DNA from: Candidatus Krumholzibacteriia bacterium
Lineage (GTDB): Bacteria; Krumholzibacteriota; Krumholzibacteriia; JAJRXK01
Reading direction: 5' to 3'
Length of the DNA: 64,000 bases
Assembly: GCA_035268685.1 (NCBI GenBank)
Contig: DATFKK010000006.1
Coordinates: forward strand, 1 to 64,000
This document shows positions 40,390-49,946 of the stretch, in pieces. Under the pieces are notes generated by a model. The model was given only the letters and a program-made list of their open reading frames with translations. It did not search any database and was not told the DNA's origin. The position numbers and the translations under genes are program-made. Numbering within the stretch: the stretch's first letter is position 1; every line of letters starts with the position of its first letter.

Positions 40390-40566
40390 GTGAAAGTGTC
40401 ACTCGCGAAGAAGATCGCCCGGTCGCGGTCCGCTGCGGCGGATGCATGACTCCCAGGCTCCCGTACGCCAGGCCGTCATGGGCTCCCACCTCGTGGCGGC
40501 GATCCCAAGGCTCCCTTCCCATGCGTCGATGGTTCGGTGACACGCACACCGGATGGAGGCCGTGGT

Positions 40567-41580
40567 ATGCCCTGTTCGTTGGTGGGAGAGAGTCCGTCGA
40601 TCTGCGGACTCCGTGACCGCCTCGGCGTGATCGCGCGCACCCAGCCGGGCGTCACGATCCTGATCACCGGTCCCTCCGGTTCCGGCAAGGAACTCGTGGC
40701 CCGTGAGATTCATTGTCTGAACGCCAGGACCCGCAGGGGTGCCTTCGTCCCCGTCGACCTGAGCTACGTGCCCCGCGAACTGGCGGGCAGTCGACTCTTC
40801 GGACACGAGCGCGGCGCGTTCACCGACGCACGGGAACGCCGCCCTGGCGCCTTCGAAGAGGGGCGCGGCGGCACCGTGTTCCTGGACGAGGTCTCGAGCA
40901 TCACTCTGGAGTTCCAGGGCATGTTCCTGCGCGTGCTGCAGGAGCGCGAGTTCGCGCCTCTCGGCTCGACGAAGGTCTTTCGTACCGATGCGCGGATCAT
41001 CGCGGCCAGCAACGAGAACCTCTGGGACAAGGTCCAGGCCGGTTTCTTCCGTCAGGACCTGTACTTCCGTCTGAAGGTGCTCGAGGTCTTGGTGCCGTCC
41101 CTGAGTGAACGGACGGAGGACATCCCTCTGCTGGTGCGCCATTTCATCGTGAAGCACGCGCCACAAGTGGGGTGCGACCCGGGGCTCGCCGTCGACGACG
41201 AGGTCTTCGAAGCCCTGGCCCGTCGGCCCTGGCCCGGCAACGTGCGGCAACTCGAGAACGTGATCATCCACAGTCTGGCCCTGGCCATCGACGACACGGT
41301 TCTCCGTGCGTCCCACCTCCCTCCGCAGGGTCCGGAGGAGACCGGGGGGCGGGTGTCGCCCGTCGCGCGCGACCTGCTCGCCATGCCCTACCCGGAAGCA
41401 CAGCGCGAGTCCCTGCGTCGCTTCAAGATCTCCTACTGGACGCATCGATTGCACGAGTCGGGCGGGAGCATCGCGAAGACCGCGCGCGGTGCCGGCATCC
41501 TTCCTTCGAGTCTTCACCGGATGGTGAGCGAACTGGGACTCAAGGGCCGATACGAATCGGGGCAAGCCGATGAAGCGTGA
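40567..41580 (+). CDS. Sigma-54-dependent transcription activator without sensor domain
   Basis: A 337-residue AAA+ enhancer-binding protein. Walker A is GPSGSGKE (35-42), the sigma-54 contact loop is ERGAFTDA (81-88), Walker B is GTVFLDE (102-108), and 'FFRQDLYFRLKVLEV' and 'RPWPGNVRQLENVI' complete the AAA+ core. A Fis-type HTH follows at about 295-330 ('SIAKTARGAGILPSSLHRMVSELGLKG'). There is no receiver, GAF or PAS domain, so control must come from level or partner proteins, as with PspF. The ATG at 40567 has GGAGG 7 bases upstream; a GTG at 40537 is an alternative. It lies directly before the secreted cohesin/dockerin genes and may activate them. Confidence 0.9.
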   Translation: MPCSLVGESPSICGLRDRLGVIARTQPGVTILITGPSGSGKELVAREIHCLNARTRRGAFVPVDLSYVPRELAGSRLFGHERGAFTDARERRPGAFEEGRGGTVFLDEVSSITLEFQGMFLRVLQEREFAPLGSTKVFRTDARIIAASNENLWDKVQAGFFRQDLYFRLKVLEVLVPSLSERTEDIPLLVRHFIVKHAPQVGCDPGLAVDDEVFEALARRPWPGNVRQLENVIIHSLALAIDDTVLRASHLPPQGPEETGGRVSPVARDLLAMPYPEAQRESLRRFKISYWTHRLHESGGSIAKTARGAGILPSSLHRMVSELGLKGRYESGQADEA

Positions 41581-41786
41581 CCCTACACACTTCTCCTGTC
41601 TGCGTTCACACCCGAGTTACGCGATCGACACACGCGCGTTAGCGATCACGTCCGGACCGGGACTTCAGCGATCGAGGACGGATGACGTATGCATTGGTCA
41701 CTTCGTCACTTGCACGTTCTCTCGTTTCGTTTCGGTCCTTGGTACGACCGTTGCGCGAAGGGTGTCCTGTCAGTCGTGCATCGCAC

Positions 41787-41800
41787 GGCACCCTCACAGC
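41787..41800 (+). promoter_or_regulatory. Weak -24/-12 (sigma-54) candidate with upstream repeats
   Basis: GGCAC at 41787 and GC at 41799 have the exact 10-base gap of a sigma-54 promoter (GG-N10-GC), 69 bases before the secreted-protein gene. The TTGC half is poor (CAGC here), so this is weak. Upstream, GCGATC occurs three times, at 41621, 41642 and 41668, where an enhancer site could be. The rest of the 288-bp gap holds nothing I recognise. Confidence 0.2.
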
Positions 41801-41868
41801 CGGTCCGCCCGTTCGGGTTGCTGGTTCACGACAAGTAGACGACCACTCATCCAAGGAGATGAACCCCC

Positions 41869-43725
41869 ATGTATGCGCTGACAAGTCGGTCGTACGGCGC
41901 CCCCGCTCTCTTCCTCGGCCTCGCGGCCCTTCTGGTGTTCGGCACGACGCCCGTCCAGGCCGGATGCATCGACGTGTCGATCGCCGACGAGATCACGGTC
42001 GATCCCGGAGAGACGGTCACCGTGCCGGTGTTCGTCTCGGACGTCGACCAGGGTCTGCATCCCATCTACAGCTACGAGATCGACATCCAGTACTGCCCCT
42101 ACGACACCCGTAACACGCTCGAGCTCGTCGGGGTGAACGACGAGAACACGTTGCCCGCGTCCCTGGACTGGCGTGCGCCCGTGTGGTCGGAGGACGACGG
42201 TGTGATCCGCATCGTGTCCGCCGGCGATCAGCCGTTGCCCGGCGGCACACGGGGCACGCTGCTCAATCTGGTCTTCGAGGTGAGCCCGGTCGCGCAGGGC
42301 TGCGACGTCTGCGACATCGTCGTCCTCGACGTCCTGTTCAACGAGCCCGATCAGGACAACGTCGTGTGCATGGGCGACGGCCAGGTGGTCCTGGACCACT
42401 ACGCCTGTGTCGGAGAGGTCGAGTTCTGGAACCAGAACTGGATCAATCTGACTCGTACCTGGCAGCGTCGCCCCATGCAGGAGGTCAAGACGCGCTTCCT
42501 CGGCAACTGTGGCGAGCTGCCGTCGCGGAGCACGACCTTCACCGACGAGGACGGTTGGTACACCCTCAACTGCCTCCTGAGCTGCACCGACGAGAACACG
42601 GTCACGCCGACCCGGTTCTACGACCAGAATCCGCAGGTGCGGGAACGCATCACGACCATGGATGCCTCGCTGGTCCTGCAGTACGTGATCGGGTCGCAGG
42701 CGGCGGACGTCTGGAACCCGGACAACCCGAATGCGGAATTCCTGCGTGACGACTGTGACGTGAATCCCCCAGAGGTTGCCTCGGACGTCTCGGGCGACGG
42801 CTCGATCTCGGCCTACGATGCCTCGTTGATCCTGCGTTGGTACGTCGGCGAGATCCAGCGCTTCCCGGCCGACAACGAGGACCTGTGGTTCTTCTACAAC
42901 CGGTCCACCTGCGAGGTCGACGTGGGAACCTGCCCGTCGTCGACCGATGAGCTCGGCGAGGAAGTGGAAGGCCCCGATTTCATCGGCCTGCTCCTGGGTG
43001 ACGTGAACGGCAGCTGGGGGGACGAGGACACGACCTCGGATCCGGCCGACGTCGATCCTCTCTATCGTGAGACCGACATGACCGTGGCGACGCTCCGACT
43101 CGGGGAGACCCGCGAGGAGGGCGATGCCGTGATCGTTCCGGTGCTCGCCGAGGGAGACGCCGCGCTGTCCGCCGGTGCGCTCAGCTTCCAGATCGACAAT
43201 GCGGCGCAGTACGAGGGCGTGCGCTCGCCTCGTGGGAACGGCGTTCTGACGGCCGGTCATGCCGCCGGCGACGTGTTGACCGTGGCCTTCGCCACCGGTG
43301 AGGCCTTCGAGGCGAACGGCGCGTTGGTCGAACTGGTCTTCGACCGGGCCGCCGACGTGTCGATGCTCGACGCCGAGCTGAACGACGGGGCCGTGACCGT
43401 GGTCATGGACAACCGCGACGTGACGTCGGCGTCGGTGCCGAATCGGACCACCCTCGTGGTCCACGGCAACCACCCGAACCCCTTCAACCCGAAGACCCAG
43501 ATCTCGTTCTACCTCCCCGAGGAGCGGCGGACGACGGTCCAGGTCTACGACGTGTTCGGGCGGGTCGTGCGGACGCTGGCCATGGACGAGACGATGGCCG
43601 GGGAAGTGGCGCTCGAGTGGGACGGCACCGACGATCGCGGCGGTGCGGTGGCCAGCGGCGTGTACTTCGCCCGTGTCAGTGCGGGGGACTGGACGGCCTC
43701 TCACAAGATGGTGCTCAGCAAGTAG
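41869..43725 (+). CDS. Secreted cohesin/dockerin-type protein with FlgD-like C-terminal sorting domain
   Basis: A 618-residue exported protein. Signal peptide: about 1-31 (ends PVQA-GC). Residues 33-180 look like a cohesin-type beta-sandwich ('ITVDPGETVTVPVFVSDV'). Next comes a short CNA-B-like unit and a dockerin-type region. Its first half is degenerate ('TTMDASLVLQYVIG', near 263), followed by a full F-hand loop 'DVSGDGSISAYD' (306-317) and 'GDVNGSW' (377). A second beta-sandwich covers about 400-525. The C-terminus (535-618) is 'HPNPFNPKTQISFYLP ... VYDVFGRVVRTL ... GVYFARVSAG ... KMVLSK', the FlgD-like/type IX-type sorting domain. It should be secreted and attached to the surface. AAGGAG precedes the ATG. 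It has no catalytic domain, so it is structural or adhesive. Confidence 0.85.
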   Translation: MYALTSRSYGAPALFLGLAALLVFGTTPVQAGCIDVSIADEITVDPGETVTVPVFVSDVDQGLHPIYSYEIDIQYCPYDTRNTLELVGVNDENTLPASLDWRAPVWSEDDGVIRIVSAGDQPLPGGTRGTLLNLVFEVSPVAQGCDVCDIVVLDVLFNEPDQDNVVCMGDGQVVLDHYACVGEVEFWNQNWINLTRTWQRRPMQEVKTRFLGNCGELPSRSTTFTDEDGWYTLNCLLSCTDENTVTPTRFYDQNPQVRERITTMDASLVLQYVIGSQAADVWNPDNPNAEFLRDDCDVNPPEVASDVSGDGSISAYDASLILRWYVGEIQRFPADNEDLWFFYNRSTCEVDVGTCPSSTDELGEEVEGPDFIGLLLGDVNGSWGDEDTTSDPADVDPLYRETDMTVATLRLGETREEGDAVIVPVLAEGDAALSAGALSFQIDNAAQYEGVRSPRGNGVLTAGHAAGDVLTVAFATGEAFEANGALVELVFDRAADVSMLDAELNDGAVTVVMDNRDVTSASVPNRTTLVVHGNHPNPFNPKTQISFYLPEERRTTVQVYDVFGRVVRTLAMDETMAGEVALEWDGTDDRGGAVASGVYFARVSAGDWTASHKMVLSK

Positions 43726-43743
43726 CCCCGGGTCGTTCCCTGA

Positions 43744-43767
43744 GGGGGCGGGCGCCGGCTCGCCCCC
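43744..43767 (+). terminator. Hairpin after the first cohesin/dockerin gene
   Basis: GGGGGCG (43744-43750) pairs perfectly with CGCCCCC (43761-43767), loop 10 nt, 19 bases after the stop. No T-run, so it may be a partial terminator or an mRNA 3' end stabiliser. Confidence 0.45.
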
Positions 43768-43821
43768 GACCCCTCGCTTCGATCCATGTCCCAGACGCAT
43801 CCCGTGCGATCAGGAGGAATC

Positions 43822-46707
43822 GTGAACAGCGGTCATCCGCGCGGAGGGAGTCTCCCCGAGGTGACGATGATGTCCGTGATCGTCCCCTCGTTCCACCGCG
43901 TCGCTCTCGTTCTTCTTCTCTTCTCCCTGCTGCTCTCGTGGACGACGCCCTCGCGGGCCGCCGTCGTCGTGAAGTCCTTCGACACCAGTGCATTTCCGGT
44001 CGTCGAGGCCACGGTCGAGCTCACCGGTGCCGACGGCGCACCCCTCTGCGCGTTGGAGCCCTCCGACTTCGACGTGATGGAGAACGCCGTCCCCGTTCTC
44101 GATCTCGAAGTCGAGAACGACGTGACACCCGACGGCCGGCGGCGCCTCGTGCTCGTCGTGTCGGCCGGCCTGCGCACGGCGGGCGCGGTCCTCGAGTGCA
44201 CGGTCGACCGGGCCGAGCAGATCCTCGACCTGCTGAGTCCGGGAGACGAGGTCGGGCTCGTCGTCGTGCGCAGCTGCGCGACCCTCGACGTCGCGCCGAC
44301 GACCGATCACGCGGAGGTCCGGACCGCCCTCGACGCGCTCGAGCCGGACGGTGGTGCCGCGCTGATCGACGGCCTCTACCTGGCCCTGCAGACCGTGTGC
44401 GACGCCGGCGGAGGCAACGTGGTCGCGGTGACCGACGGCCTCGAGCTCGACAGCGACACGTGTCCGATCGCCCCCGACGGCTCCGCCGACGACATCCTCG
44501 ACGACGACGTGCAGGAGCTCGTGGCTCTCGGAACCTCCTGCGGGGCCGAGCTCGACGTGGTCTCGGCTCGCGACGAGAGTGTCGGCTGGCTGCGGGACAC
44601 GGTCGACGCGCTCGGTGGACGGGCCGTGCGCTGCAGCGAGGCCACCACGGAGGATCTCGAGGACATCCTGCGCACCGGTGGACTCCAGCTCTGCGAGACC
44701 ACGATCCGCTTCACGTCTCCGTCGGGATCCGGGGGGGATCCACGACGCTCGGTCGAGGTCTGTGTCCCCCTGGCGAGTGCACCGTCCTGCGACGAGTTCA
44801 CCTACGCGGTCGCCGGCCTGTTCCTGCCCTCCGATCTGGCCGGTCCCTTCGAGGTGTGTCAGGACCCGGCGGAGCCGATCGCCGTGGGCGTCGGGGTGTC
44901 GGCCGGTGAGGACGAAGTGGTCTCGGCGCGTCTGGAGCTGACCGAGGTCGCGTCTTCCGGTGACGACGAACTCGTGGTGGACCTGGTGGCCGACCCCGGA
45001 GACCTGCTGTTCCGCGGGACCGTGCCCGCCGGACGACTGGGCTTCGACACCCGCTACGACGCCGTGTTCGCCGCGACCACGGCCGGAGGTGCGACGCTAC
45101 GGCTGCCACCCGAAGGTGCGTTGGAACTCTGCACCCTTCCGGCCGGGGACGAGGCCATCGCCCTGGTGTTGCCCACGGTCGAGACACGCCCCGGTGCCGA
45201 GGTCGAAGTCCCGATCGAACTGCGCGGCCTGCGGAGCTCCTTCGTGGTGTCCTATTCCATCGAGCTCGATCTCGGCGATGCCCCGGTCGACGCCGTCGTG
45301 GGTTCGCACGAGTCGACCGTCGCGGGCGACGCCCAGTGGGGTCCACCCGCGGCGTCGCTCACCGACGACGGACGTCTGTTCGTCTCGGGCGCGGGGGCCG
45401 CCCCGATCGCGACCACGGGGGTCCTGGTCCGGCTGCGGCTGCAGGTGGGTCTGGCCGGGCCGAGTGGATGCCAGCCCTCGACGATACGATCGGCGACGCT
45501 GAACGAGGGGGATCCACCCGTCGTCGAGACCATCGACGGGCAGATCTGCGTCGACACGCAGTGCGTCGATTCGAGCGTACGTCTGTGGAAGTCCGACGAA
45601 CCGGTCGGCGGCGTGCAGGTGCTGCGGACCGTCGACGGGACCCAGGTCACGACCACCGCCGACGACGGGAGTTTCTCGCTCTGCGTGGGAGACGACGAGA
45701 CGCTCGAGCTGGAGTTGCGCGGTCCCACGGACGACACGGTCGGGGTGTCCGCGCTGGACGCATCCCTGGTCCTGCAGTCGACGGTGGGCCTGGTCGCGCT
45801 TCCCGACCCCGACGTGGCCATAGAGAGCCCGTGTGACGACGACCCGGTCCAGCCCGACCTGTGGGCCGCCGACACGTCGGGTGACGGCACGGTGACCGCC
45901 TTCGACGCTTCGCTCATCCTGCAGCGTGTGGTGGGAATCCTCGATTCCTTCCCGGCGGGTGCCTGGCGCTTCACCTGTTCGCCCTTCCTGGTAGGGGGCG
46001 ATACGGCCGTGGCCGAGCACCGCGCCGTACGCGTGGGAGACGTCAACGCGTCTTGGGTCGGCGATCCGATCCCCGCGGCCCTGAGCCGCTCCGGTGTGCA
46101 GCGGTCGTTGCACTGGCGGCCGCTCGACGACGAAGGGCTTCGCTGGGCCCTGGGGGTCGACGAGGCCGATGCGTTCCGGTCGTTGGTGTTCGCCGTCGAG
46201 GGGGCGCCCCTCGACGTTTCCGTTCGGGCTCCCGGGAACTGGTCGAGCGCGGTCCGCCGCGATGGCGCACGTCTGCGGGTGGCCGCAGCGGGAGCCCGGT
46301 CCCTGGGCGAAGGCGCCGACCTGTTGGTCCTCGAGGGCAGTGAGCCCTGGTGTCCCCGCAACGGTGCCGTCGAGCTCGACGGCGACCCCGCCACGATCAC
46401 CCGACAGGGCGGTGCACGTCCGTCCACCCCGAAGAGCACGTTCGACCTGAGGATCGAACCGGAAGACGACGGATCGGGGCTCTGTGTGCGTTGGAACCTC
46501 GGCCGCGCCACAACGGGCCGGATCCAGGTCTTCGACGTGCGTGGTCGGCGTGTGACGCAGCTGCCGGTGTCGGGCGAAGTCGGGTCCACGCGGTGGATCG
46601 GCACCGACGCCGACGATCGTCGACTCGCTCGTGGAGTCTACTTCATGCGGCTGAGCACCGACGACGGCTCTGCTGTCGTCCGCAAGGTCGTCCTGGTCGA
46701 TCCCTGA
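43822..46707 (+). CDS. Secreted vWA-like, cohesin/dockerin protein with FlgD-like sorting domain
   Basis: A 961-residue exported protein. Signal peptide: about 1-46. Residues 50-300 resemble a von Willebrand A-type domain ('VVEATVELTGADGAPLCALEPSDFDVMEN', 'RRLVLVVSAGLRTAGAVLE', 'GGNVVAVTDGLE'), though the MIDAS motif is not clean. A cohesin-like sandwich follows at about 445-600 ('LPTVETRPGAEVEVPIELRGLRSSF'). The dockerin-like region has the degenerate 'SALDASLVLQSTVG' (near 643), the full loop 'DTSGDGTVTAFD' (684) and 'GDVNASW' (739). The C-terminal 90 residues are the sorting domain ('IQVFDVRGRRVTQL ... LARGVYFMRLS ... KVVLVDP'). The GTG at 43822 has AGGAGG close upstream. Its order of modules copies that of the preceding gene, so the two are paralogues. 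Confidence 0.83.
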   Translation: MNSGHPRGGSLPEVTMMSVIVPSFHRVALVLLLFSLLLSWTTPSRAAVVVKSFDTSAFPVVEATVELTGADGAPLCALEPSDFDVMENAVPVLDLEVENDVTPDGRRRLVLVVSAGLRTAGAVLECTVDRAEQILDLLSPGDEVGLVVVRSCATLDVAPTTDHAEVRTALDALEPDGGAALIDGLYLALQTVCDAGGGNVVAVTDGLELDSDTCPIAPDGSADDILDDDVQELVALGTSCGAELDVVSARDESVGWLRDTVDALGGRAVRCSEATTEDLEDILRTGGLQLCETTIRFTSPSGSGGDPRRSVEVCVPLASAPSCDEFTYAVAGLFLPSDLAGPFEVCQDPAEPIAVGVGVSAGEDEVVSARLELTEVASSGDDELVVDLVADPGDLLFRGTVPAGRLGFDTRYDAVFAATTAGGATLRLPPEGALELCTLPAGDEAIALVLPTVETRPGAEVEVPIELRGLRSSFVVSYSIELDLGDAPVDAVVGSHESTVAGDAQWGPPAASLTDDGRLFVSGAGAAPIATTGVLVRLRLQVGLAGPSGCQPSTIRSATLNEGDPPVVETIDGQICVDTQCVDSSVRLWKSDEPVGGVQVLRTVDGTQVTTTADDGSFSLCVGDDETLELELRGPTDDTVGVSALDASLVLQSTVGLVALPDPDVAIESPCDDDPVQPDLWAADTSGDGTVTAFDASLILQRVVGILDSFPAGAWRFTCSPFLVGGDTAVAEHRAVRVGDVNASWVGDPIPAALSRSGVQRSLHWRPLDDEGLRWALGVDEADAFRSLVFAVEGAPLDVSVRAPGNWSSAVRRDGARLRVAAAGARSLGEGADLLVLEGSEPWCPRNGAVELDGDPATITRQGGARPSTPKSTFDLRIEPEDDGSGLCVRWNLGRATTGRIQVFDVRGRRVTQLPVSGEVGSTRWIGTDADDRRLARGVYFMRLSTDDGSAVVRKVVLVDP

Positions 46708-46715
46708 TCGCTCCG

Positions 46716-46750
46716 GGGAGGACCGGCGCACCGCGTGTGCCGGTCCTCCC
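46716..46750 (+). terminator. 15-bp hairpin between the second and third secreted genes
   Basis: Positions 46716-46730 pair with 46736-46750 (15 pairs, one of them G-U, loop CCGCG). It is the strongest hairpin in the window. It lies right after the stop and 34 bases before the next start, so it may lower expression of the third gene or protect the mRNA end. No T-run. Confidence 0.6.
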
Positions 46751-46783
46751 GGGTGCTCGATACCTCCTGCGAAAGGAACGGCA

Positions 46784-47287
46784 TTGCGCACGCTTGCTCT
46801 GACCCTGGTGCTCCTGGCCTGTGCGGCCACCTTCCCCGGCGACGGATCGGCGCAGGACCTGCCCATCGATCTGGTCTTCGACCTGCCCGACTCGACGATC
46901 GCTCCCGGCGAGACACGCCACGTGGTCGTCGACTACTTCGGAACGGGCGGCGACGTCGAAGTGTTCGGGATCGCCCTCACGATCGAGTTCCAGAACCTCG
47001 AGATCGTCGAGGAATCGGTGCGGTCGGGGGAAGACGTACGTCCCCGCTGGGGCGATCCCATCGTCCGGATCGAAGAGGGGCAACTGCGGACCGCGATCGC
47101 CGGCGTGACCGAGATCGTCGATCCACGGTACCTGCTCGAGTTCGACGTGCGTCGGCCCGAGGTCGACGGGGAAGCACCGCCCTACGGGCTGAAGATCGTA
47201 CGAGCGGTGATGAACGAGACCATCGTGGTCCGTCACGACATGCAGACGTGGGGCGAGGTGAAGTCCCACTACCAACCGCGCCGATGA
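46784..47287 (+). CDS. Small secreted single cohesin-like domain protein
   Basis: A 167-residue exported protein that starts with TTG (46784), with GAAAGGA 6 bases upstream. Residues 1-23 form a signal peptide (ends GSAQ). The rest is one cohesin-like beta-sandwich: 'DSTIAPGETRHVVVDYFGTGGDVEVFGIALTIEFQNLEIVEESV' is the usual A-P-G-E beginning and 'EEGQLRTAIAGV' the usual later strand. It lacks dockerin and sorting domains, so it could be a free or partner-held component of the assembly made by the two preceding proteins. Confidence 0.75.
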   Translation: MRTLALTLVLLACAATFPGDGSAQDLPIDLVFDLPDSTIAPGETRHVVVDYFGTGGDVEVFGIALTIEFQNLEIVEESVRSGEDVRPRWGDPIVRIEEGQLRTAIAGVTEIVDPRYLLEFDVRRPEVDGEAPPYGLKIVRAVMNETIVVRHDMQTWGEVKSHYQPRR

Positions 47288-47393: not shown

Positions 47394-49946
47394 CTACTGC
47401 TCCGCGTACTCCCGATATCGCGCCACCATGGCAGGGTCGCCGGTCTTCTCGCCGAGAGTCACGAGGGACTGCGCGGCGGCCACGGTGCGCGGGTGGTCGA
47501 CACCGGATTTCTCGAGGAACACGTCGAAGGCGCTGAGCAGGGGCGCACGCGCCTCGTCGTAGCGCTCCAAGGCCATGAGCGTGACGCCGCGATCGCCGTG
47601 GGCCAGTGCCGTTCGTGGGTGGTCCGGGTCGTACATGCGTCCGGCGATTTCGAGGGCCTGGTCGAAGAGGACGAGCCCTTCGTCGGAGCGTTCGAGACCG
47701 CGAAGGGCGAGCCCTTCGTTGCGCAGCACGGCGAGCACGTCCGGGTGGTCGGTTCCGCGGACTTCGATCAGGCGCGGCCGCAGTTCGCGGTAGACGTCGA
47801 CCGCGCGCTGGTTCTCGCCGGTGATCATCGCGACGGTGCCGACGTTGATGCGTGTGCGGATCGCGTCGATGTGATCGGATCCGAGATTGCGGGCGCGGAT
47901 CTCGTAGGTCGTTTCGAGGGCGGCGAGGGTCTCCTCGGCGCGACCCATCCGATAGAGGACGCCGCCCCGGTTCTCGACGCAGGTGGCGTACTCGGGGTGG
48001 TCGGTTCCGAAGTGCTGCTCGTAGAGCTGCAGGGCGCGATCGAAGTCTGCGAGTGCACCCTCGTAGTCGCCGCTCTGACTGCGGTACTGGGCAGCGTTGT
48101 TCATGTACACCGCCAGCCGGGGACTGTCGGGATCGACTGTGAGCATGTGATCGTAGGCCGCGCGGGACAGGGAATCGGCGACCGCGGCGTCGCCGTCCCG
48201 CAGGACGATCAGATCGGCCCGTTGGGACAGGTTCTCGGCTCCCAGCCTCCGATCGCTTCCCTCGAGCCGCGACGCGAGGGCTTCGGTGATCGTCAGGAGC
48301 GAGTCGGCCTCGTCGAAGCGCTGGGCGTAGAGCAGACTGCGGGTGAGATACTGCCGTGCCTCGACGCGTTCGCCGAGCGAGGCCGACGGATCGTTCTCGG
48401 TCCTCTCCACGGCGGCGGTCGCCGCTTCGACGGCCTTCGGATAGTCGTTCGCCGCGCGAGCGACGCGCGACTCGAGACCGTACAGTGACGCCAACGCACG
48501 CGGATCGACCTCACCGAGGGCAGCGTGGATCTCGAGGGCGCGCGTGACCTGTTCGGTGGCCGGCACGAGCCGCCCCAGGCCGAGATAGGCATCCCCGAGC
48601 ACGGTGTGCATCGACGCCTCGACGGCCGGTTGGTCGGCGAAGGACGTCGCGACCTCCTCCACCGCCGCGTCGAGGAGCTCGACGACGGTGACGTCGCGCG
48701 ACCCGCCCCGCCACGGATCGGCCGACGCCAGCGTTCGCGTGAGGAAATCGTTCATCGCTTCGGCCTTGGCCGCTTCGGCGGTGGCACGGTCACGCTCGCG
48801 TGCGATCGCCGTCGCCTGCACCGTGGCGAGGACGGCGAAGGCGGCGAGTGCGAGCACGGCGCCCGTCGACATCACGACTCCGGCGCGGTGGCGCCGCACG
48901 AACTTGCCCATGCGATAGCCCGCGGTCGGTGGTCCGGCCTGGACGGGTTGGTCGTCGAGGTGGCGTTGGATGTCCTGTGCGAGTTCCGCCGGCGAAGCGT
49001 AGCGACGGTTGCGGTCCTTCTCGAGCGCACGCATCACGATCCAGTCCAGGTCACCGCGGACCTGGCCGGACAGACGTCGGGTATCGGTGCGGCGCGACTG
49101 GGTGATCTTCGTGGCGCTCGCGCCGAGCGCGGACAGCCGGGTGCTGGGCTTCGGTGGGTCCTCCTCGCGCAGGATACGGAGCATGCCCGCGAGTCCGCCG
49201 TGACGCAGTTCCTCGGCCTCGAAGGGAAGCGCTCCCACGAGGATCTCGTAGAGGATCACGCCGAGGCTGTAGACGTCGGTGCGCGTGTCGACGTCTTCGT
49301 TCGTGAGCTCTGCCTGTTCCGGACTCATGTACTCGGGCGTTCCGATCATCTGCCCGATCGACGTGGCCATGGTCTGCTCGGTGAGCTTGCGGGTCGTGGC
49401 CTTGGCCACGCCGAAGTCGATCACCTTCGGTGAGGGCTGCGCGTCGACGTCGGCCACCAGGATGTTCGAGGGCTTGAGGTCGCGATGCACGACCGACTTC
49501 TGGTGCGCGTGCCCGACCGCGTGGCAGACCTTCTGGAACAGTTCGAGCCGGGCTCTCGTGTCCAGACGTCGGCGATCGCAGTACTCGTTGATCGGCGTTC
49601 CCTGGACGTACTCCATCGCGAAGAAGGGGCGTCCGTGTGGAGTCGTGCCCGCGTCGAAGACCCGTGCGATGCACGGATGATCCATCAAGGCGAGCGCCTG
49701 TCGTTCGGCCTCGAACCGCGCGAGCACTTCGCGCGAATCCATACCCGCCTTGATCAGTTTGAGGGCGACGGTTCGCCGGATCGGGGCCGCCTGGTCGGCC
49801 TTCCAGACCTCGCCCATGCCCCCGGTTCCGATCCGATGGCGGAGCACGTAGGGTCCGAGTCGAGCACCTTCATGGGCGCTGGGGTCGGCGGCCTGCGGCG
49901 AGCCCGGGTTCTCGCCGGAGGAATGCAGGGTGCGATCGTCGTTCAT
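47394..49946 (-). CDS. Membrane Ser/Thr protein kinase with TPR repeats
   Basis: An 850-residue Hanks-type kinase. The kinase domain (32-310) has the glycine loop GTGGMGEV (40-47), K63 in ALKLIK, the HRDLKPSN catalytic loop (D156), DFG (177-179) and 'GTPEYMSPEQA'. A transmembrane helix follows at about 358-380. The C-terminal half (about 420-850) is a series of TPR repeats, several with the '...YEQHFGTDHPEYATCVENRGGVLYRMG...' pattern of bacterial kinase-TPR proteins. It is expected to sense a partner through the TPRs on the other side of the membrane. There is no ribosome site before the ATG at 49946. It lies 44 bases after the D-lactate dehydrogenase gene. Confidence 0.93.
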   Translation of the reverse strand: MNDDRTLHSSGENPGSPQAADPSAHEGARLGPYVLRHRIGTGGMGEVWKADQAAPIRRTVALKLIKAGMDSREVLARFEAERQALALMDHPCIARVFDAGTTPHGRPFFAMEYVQGTPINEYCDRRRLDTRARLELFQKVCHAVGHAHQKSVVHRDLKPSNILVADVDAQPSPKVIDFGVAKATTRKLTEQTMATSIGQMIGTPEYMSPEQAELTNEDVDTRTDVYSLGVILYEILVGALPFEAEELRHGGLAGMLRILREEDPPKPSTRLSALGASATKITQSRRTDTRRLSGQVRGDLDWIVMRALEKDRNRRYASPAELAQDIQRHLDDQPVQAGPPTAGYRMGKFVRRHRAGVVMSTGAVLALAAFAVLATVQATAIARERDRATAEAAKAEAMNDFLTRTLASADPWRGGSRDVTVVELLDAAVEEVATSFADQPAVEASMHTVLGDAYLGLGRLVPATEQVTRALEIHAALGEVDPRALASLYGLESRVARAANDYPKAVEAATAAVERTENDPSASLGERVEARQYLTRSLLYAQRFDEADSLLTITEALASRLEGSDRRLGAENLSQRADLIVLRDGDAAVADSLSRAAYDHMLTVDPDSPRLAVYMNNAAQYRSQSGDYEGALADFDRALQLYEQHFGTDHPEYATCVENRGGVLYRMGRAEETLAALETTYEIRARNLGSDHIDAIRTRINVGTVAMITGENQRAVDVYRELRPRLIEVRGTDHPDVLAVLRNEGLALRGLERSDEGLVLFDQALEIAGRMYDPDHPRTALAHGDRGVTLMALERYDEARAPLLSAFDVFLEKSGVDHPRTVAAAQSLVTLGEKTGDPAMVARYREYAEQ

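Follow-up and report, generated by a model that had tools for sequence, protein, structure and literature searches.

A probable family-specific operon pairing a sigma-54 activator with three exported cohesin/dockerin proteins: a candidate non-catalytic surface scaffold in the Krumholzibacteriota

Introduction

The role that cohesin and dockerin modules play when no cellulosome is present is an unsettled question (PMC5244752), and the non-cellulosomal proteins that carry them (Peer et al., 2009, cited in PMC5244752) appear in that citing article as proteins of unknown function. A compact instance of the question lies in the draft genome of a Candidatus Krumholzibacteriia bacterium (4.59 Mb in 202 contigs), on contig C6, of which the first 64,000 nucleotides form the window analysed here. 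Four same-strand genes occupy positions 40537-47287 (+) of this window, encoding a sigma-54 enhancer-binding protein (EBP) and three exported proteins (P1, P2 and P3). A first-pass annotation had placed the same four genes here, and all four are confirmed on the + strand; it had read them as a sigma-54-controlled surface assembly, not a cellulosome and possibly undescribed. The cassette is a small, conserved, enzyme-free set with an activator and a promoter, and its partners and expression conditions are directly testable. Our best explanation, to which we assign a probability of roughly 55%, is that a sigma-54 operon with a dedicated activator makes a non-catalytic scaffold exported by the type IX route.

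Gene order and conservation

The order EBP-P1-P2-P3 is kept in 4/4 examined genomes of the host family (BLAST of fetched loci): the host itself, one genome of the same genus (G001) and two of the same family (G002 and G003). The flanks contain zero genes common to the four loci, and the remaining BLAST matches are antisense or fall in FlgD-type tails. Because gene order is conserved while the flanks differ, the four genes are best read as one functional unit, as had been proposed; the search for the same gene set in relatives, suggested at the time as a check, thereby recovered all four, identically ordered, from each of the three further family genomes.

Among the four family genomes, the exported proteins P1-P3 are 27-43% identical, and the EBP orthologues, in the same position in G001-G003, are 58-63% identical over the full alignment. 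These orthologues score 402-457 bits, against at most 223 bits for every other EBP in 80 genomes of the phylum, so that the other 76 phylum genomes lack an orthologue (next best match 223 bits). In the same 76 genomes, a profile spanning the P1 cohesin to dockerin found single-domain matches only, and among the matches listed in a scan of GTDB contigs for the EBP there were only paralogue-level hits, from many phyla, with best segments of at most 49%.

The relatives differ in detail. In G002 only, an additional exported gene with a FlgD-type tail lies between P1 and P2 (L072:8187-8990), and in G003 P2 lacks its tail and P3 is longer. Convergent with P3 in the window is a gene for a serine/threonine kinase fused to TPR repeats (47394-49946, - strand), which does not belong to the cassette in relatives. 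Rfam families gave zero matches in the region.

The activator and its promoter

EBP (347 aa; 40537..41580, + strand; alternative ATG start at 40567) comprises an AAA+ core (Sigma54_activat, PF00158, E=5.7e-52), a lid and a C-terminal helix-turn-helix-like region, with no sensor domain. An AAA+ domain with a GAFTGA-type loop marks it as a sigma-54 enhancer-binding protein; the sigma-54 contact loop reads GAFTDA here and GAFTGA in two orthologues. GAFTDA is among the variants expected to retain activity and is present in the Desulfovibrio vulgaris regulator DVU2106 (PMC4641369). In the stop-to-stop frame its Walker A motif lies at residue 73, against at least residue 171 in the others among the 20/24 EBPs of the genome that our script could parse, making this the only activator of those 20 without room for a sensor; the sensorless activator described just upstream of the exported genes is thus borne out. 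Without such a domain, control would probably be exerted through the level of the activator itself or through a separate inhibitor.

PspF-type sensorless sigma-54 activators adjoin their target operon. EBP resembles them in having only an AAA+ core and a DNA-binding end and in sitting beside a sigma-54 promoter; it differs from them in sharing the orientation of its target, in that target being a surface-protein operon and in having no known inhibitor gene adjacent. Its match to the NCBIfam pspF model falls far below the cut-off.

A sigma-54 -24/-12 element (TGGTACGACCGTTGCG; 41740..41755, + strand) lies 129 bp upstream of the P1 start codon. The match at 41740 in the EBP-P1 gap (TGGTACGACCGTTGC) is still the only one in the window when one mismatch is allowed, at which stringency 1.5 matches are expected by chance. 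Genome-wide, the exact pattern gives 4 matches against 7 for a reversed control pattern, so that this count carries little weight by itself. The comparative evidence is stronger: in all four EBP-P1 gaps the highest-scoring -24/-12 match falls 110-129 bp before P1 (110-120 bp in G001-G003), with scores reached by 6, 14, 87 and 35 of 2000 dinucleotide shuffles (naive product of the four frequencies ~2e-8). An rpoN gene is present, with its DNA-binding part intact and its upstream part cut by the contig end; promoter and rpoN together mark the operon as probably sigma-54-dependent. An association of sigma-54 with cell-exterior genes has been described (PMC3162934). Taking the element in four genomes, the rpoN gene and the conserved EBP linkage together, we regard sigma-54 control of a single operon, as originally suggested, as very likely.

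Neither sigma-70 promoters nor terminators exceeded chance numbers in the region. Between P1 and P2, around 43742-43770, a putative stem-loop where no terminator was called could lower read-through and to that extent counts against our best explanation. Within the P2 coding sequence, positions 46194-46216 hold a GC-rich stem-loop of 10 perfect pairs with TTTC behind it, which resembles a terminator by pattern only.

Domain architecture of the exported proteins

P1 (618 aa; 41869..43725, + strand) runs from a signal peptide through a cohesin, a prealbumin-like unit, a dockerin and a beta-rich stretch to a FlgD-type tail. Its cohesin (41989..42297, +) scores 33.4 bits against PF00963, above the cut-off, and its profile matches solved cohesins. 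The small module that follows (42406..42654, +) had been described as CNA-B-like; a module is present at that place, and it is better matched as prealbumin-like, the G001 orthologue hitting CarboxypepD_reg (E=1.4e-6) and SdrD_B (3.5e-6), both below the curated cut-offs. The dockerin (42646..42864, +) is weakly matched by Dockerin_1 (0.0077) and more clearly by profile comparison with the solved dockerin 4uyq (2.6e-5); its second calcium-loop repeat is canonical (DVSGDGSISAYD) and its first is degenerate, which counts against mutual binding. The C-terminal FlgD_ig/type IX tail (43495..43722, +) scores 47.9 bits against PF13860 and 32.4 bits against TIGR04183, above the cut-off, and is also matched by Por_Secre_tail. 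A second cohesin-like sandwich at residues 395-530 was considered and set aside, profile comparison giving it just 42-43% probability.

P2 (up to 973 aa; 43786..46707, + strand) has alternative starts at GTG 43822, behind AGGAGG, or ATG 43867. The common layout claimed for P1 and P2 holds for cohesin, beta unit, dockerin and tail, which follow in the same order in both; it fails at the ends, as P2 opens with a von Willebrand factor A (VWA) domain, overlooked in the first-pass annotation and absent from P1, and its sorting domain is weak and missing from the G003 orthologue. The VWA domain (44137..44685, +) matches VWA_2 (8.1e-6) and VWA folds in the PDB (for example 1shu, TM 0.78 by target length); a canonical metal-binding VWA was rejected on alignment, the MIDAS motif being non-canonical in 4/4 orthologues. 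The P2 cohesin (45160..45492, +), supported by fold search and profile, is above the PF00963 cut-off in the six-frame genome search and just below it in the protein scan. For the dockerin (45745..45930, +) the Dockerin_1 match in the protein scan is below the cut-off, and the four-member P2 profile matches solved dockerins (6.8e-8) as well as cohesins and VWA domains. A fold search likewise returned cohesins and VWA domains, using only those two regions of a full P2 model whose mean pLDDT is 54. The sorting tail scores 22.7 against a cut-off of 23 (TIGR04183), and this shortfall, with the loss in G003, counts against our best explanation.

P3 (167 aa; 46784..47287, + strand) is exported and carries a single cohesin with zero Pfam matches. 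The assignment comes from an AlphaFold model built from four orthologues (block pLDDT 73-93 across most of the core), whose best PDB matches are cohesins, and from the P3 profile, which aligns to the P1 cohesin at E=2.4e-6. The lone cohesin-like domain reported for this protein is therefore a single cohesin fold, to which a conserved C-terminal tail has to be added. Membership of the cohesin family (PF00963) is thus shown for P1 by score, for P2 in the six-frame search and for P3 by fold and profile only; for an assignment to the type I dockerins (two calcium-loop repeats plus helices), weak Pfam scores stand beside profile matches to solved dockerins. The domain scan recognised no catalytic domain in P1, P2 or P3.

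Further cohesin stretches occur in the genome on C78, on C47 and on C6 downstream of the window. At G000:C6:66573-66902 (L005), 2.5 kb past the window end, is a stand-alone 459-residue ORF with a signal peptide, a cohesin, two dockerin repeats and a FlgD-type tail.

Export and the proposed assembly

P1, P2 and P3 each have a signal peptide, and the genome encodes SprA and six PorV-family proteins above the cut-off, which point to a type IX secretion system and would give the FlgD-type tails of P1 and P2 a plausible machine. P1 combines the sequence features expected of type IX cargo (signal peptide and C-terminal sorting domain in a genome with SprA and PorV); P2 does so with a tail just below the cut-off, and P3 is without a FlgD-type tail.

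Under our best explanation, the operon would be specific to the family and have its own activator. EBP would act on the sigma-54 promoter at 41740 to yield a P1-P2-P3 transcript. All three products would pass the inner membrane via Sec; P1, and probably P2, would then cross the outer membrane via the type IX system using their FlgD-type tails, and P3 would be sorted by its different, short tail. As P1 and P2 have one cohesin and one dockerin each, end-to-end joining is possible, and they could chain cohesin to dockerin without enzymes, with P3, which has a cohesin and no dockerin, capping or anchoring whichever dockerin end is left unbound. A scaffold or fibre without catalytic activity would result at the cell surface, where it would serve in adhesion or hold other proteins. 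That the parts bind one another cohesin to dockerin and form a surface structure is plausible given the signal peptides, the type IX-type tails of P1 and P2, SprA and PorV; transcription by EBP, the export route, part-to-part binding, surface location and role are what we infer.

The main rival keeps the same sigma-54 operon and treats the cohesin and dockerin modules as plain structural spacers, P1-P3 being separate adhesins that do not bind one another. It is a real possibility, if clearly the less probable one: such modules are widespread outside cellulosomes with unknown function (PMC5244752), the first P1 dockerin repeat is degenerate, and the cohesin-dockerin-FlgD tail protein at C6:66573 stands alone, outside any EBP cassette. 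Against spacers, the joint retention in four genomes of two cohesin-plus-dockerin proteins and a lone cohesin, always in one order, is the pattern expected of a matched set. The cohesins located away from the cassette also mean that binding partners may be encoded elsewhere, which weighs against our best explanation; carried further, P1 and P2 would be a docking backbone for distant dockerin or cohesin proteins, in a larger cellulosome-like complex with distant enzymes. The stretches on C78, C47 and downstream C6 favour such a complex, which we nevertheless think unlikely with one recognised cohesin per scaffold protein. Least probable is that EBP controls other genes and lies beside P1-P3 incidentally. 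The search for an activator-binding site speaks for it, and against our best explanation, in that shared words and dyads in the four gaps were not above shuffles; the linkage, kept in all four genomes although their flanks differ, and the presence of a sigma-54 element in every gap speak the other way.

The content of P1-P3 does not support a true cellulosome, with dockerin-bearing enzymes on a multi-cohesin scaffoldin: these proteins have no recognised catalytic domain and a single recognised cohesin each, and on this point the first-pass annotation is supported. The cassette does resemble cellulosome scaffoldins and autonomous cohesins (Clostridium, Ruminococcus ScaG/ScaE type) in its cohesin and dockerin modules, whose folds match solved ones, and in setting a lone-cohesin protein beside multimodular ones. 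It differs in lacking catalytic or cellulose-binding domains, in its one recognised cohesin per protein, and in its FlgD/type IX-type tails (P1 and P2), new P3 tail, sigma-54 control and VWA domain. The description as an undescribed system stands in so far as no orthologue was found outside the family and curated libraries name single domains only; as a system, the cassette is a variant of the non-cellulosomal cohesin/dockerin proteins. With those it shares modules outside any cellulosome (PMC5244752), and from those, as that article presents them, it is set apart by a conserved operon, its own activator and promoter, and a testable partner set.

A C-terminal tail shared across the phylum

P3 ends in a tail (TWGEVKSHYQPRR; 47246..47284, + strand) that is a divergent form of [ST]WGx[IV]Kx[LIM]YR-stop, and its orthologues end SWSAIKQLY, SLGQWKLRYIR and SWGGIKAMYGRDG. 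The window tail fits 6/7 constrained positions, the orthologues 6, 4 and 7. As an exact DNA pattern, WGxxKxxYR-stop gave 336 matches in 70/80 phylum genomes, against 0 for a reversed-pattern control; outside the phylum there were 2 matches in 52 genomes, one of them with an in-frame stop within the motif.

Thirty tail proteins were sampled (loci L185-L214). At positions left free in the search pattern, S or T precedes W in 27/30, and I/V/M two residues after WG and L/I/M/V/F before Y are found in 30/30; E stands at -13 in 19/30. By a simple rule, 26/30 have a signal-peptide-like start, and 29 of the 30, compared without signal peptide and tail, form 22 unrelated groups. A clear C-terminal membrane helix was found in none of the 30 (19-residue hydropathy over the final 60 residues peaking at 1.66 or less, mostly <1.1), and in the ten proteins tested the tail falls under no Pfam or NCBIfam model. 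With pattern-fetched loci excluded, a looser form of the tail ends 8/1801 frames in phylum loci and 0/5499 elsewhere, a contrast that needs care since this form was picked after some such tails had been seen.

PEP-CTERM, GlyGly-CTERM and MYXO-CTERM are likewise short homologies at the extreme C-terminus of unrelated exported proteins of a lineage (PMC1569441, PMC3237569, PMC11980579); the WG-K-YR tail differs in lacking both a membrane helix and a basic cluster, and it matches nothing in Pfam or NCBIfam. Assignment of the P3 tail to any of these classes was rejected, as the helix is lacking and the motif itself ends the chain. The [ST]WGx[IV]Kx[LIM]YR-stop tail has the look of a sorting signal not yet described, and we put at about even odds that the P3 tail is a new C-terminal sorting or anchoring signal of many exported proteins across the phylum; a common job for all these tails is likewise our inference. 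The tail, absent from the first-pass annotation, may be more novel than the cassette. If its role is as suggested, the cassette would join two export or anchoring routes (FlgD-type for P1 and P2, the new tail for P3) in one surface assembly, and the tail offers a second line of work: a short signal in 70/80 phylum genomes, with a receptor or translocon to find.

SFGSLKARY/F-like forms recur in the host genome, and tail loci include L005, L019, L065 and L073. The frame directly upstream of the 459-residue ORF in L005 ends SFGSLKARF, and from L065:13736 onward (C6, about 77.7 kb) an exported protein with a CTACHASG haem-type motif ends in SWSTLKSLFGERN, a variant of the P3-type tail.
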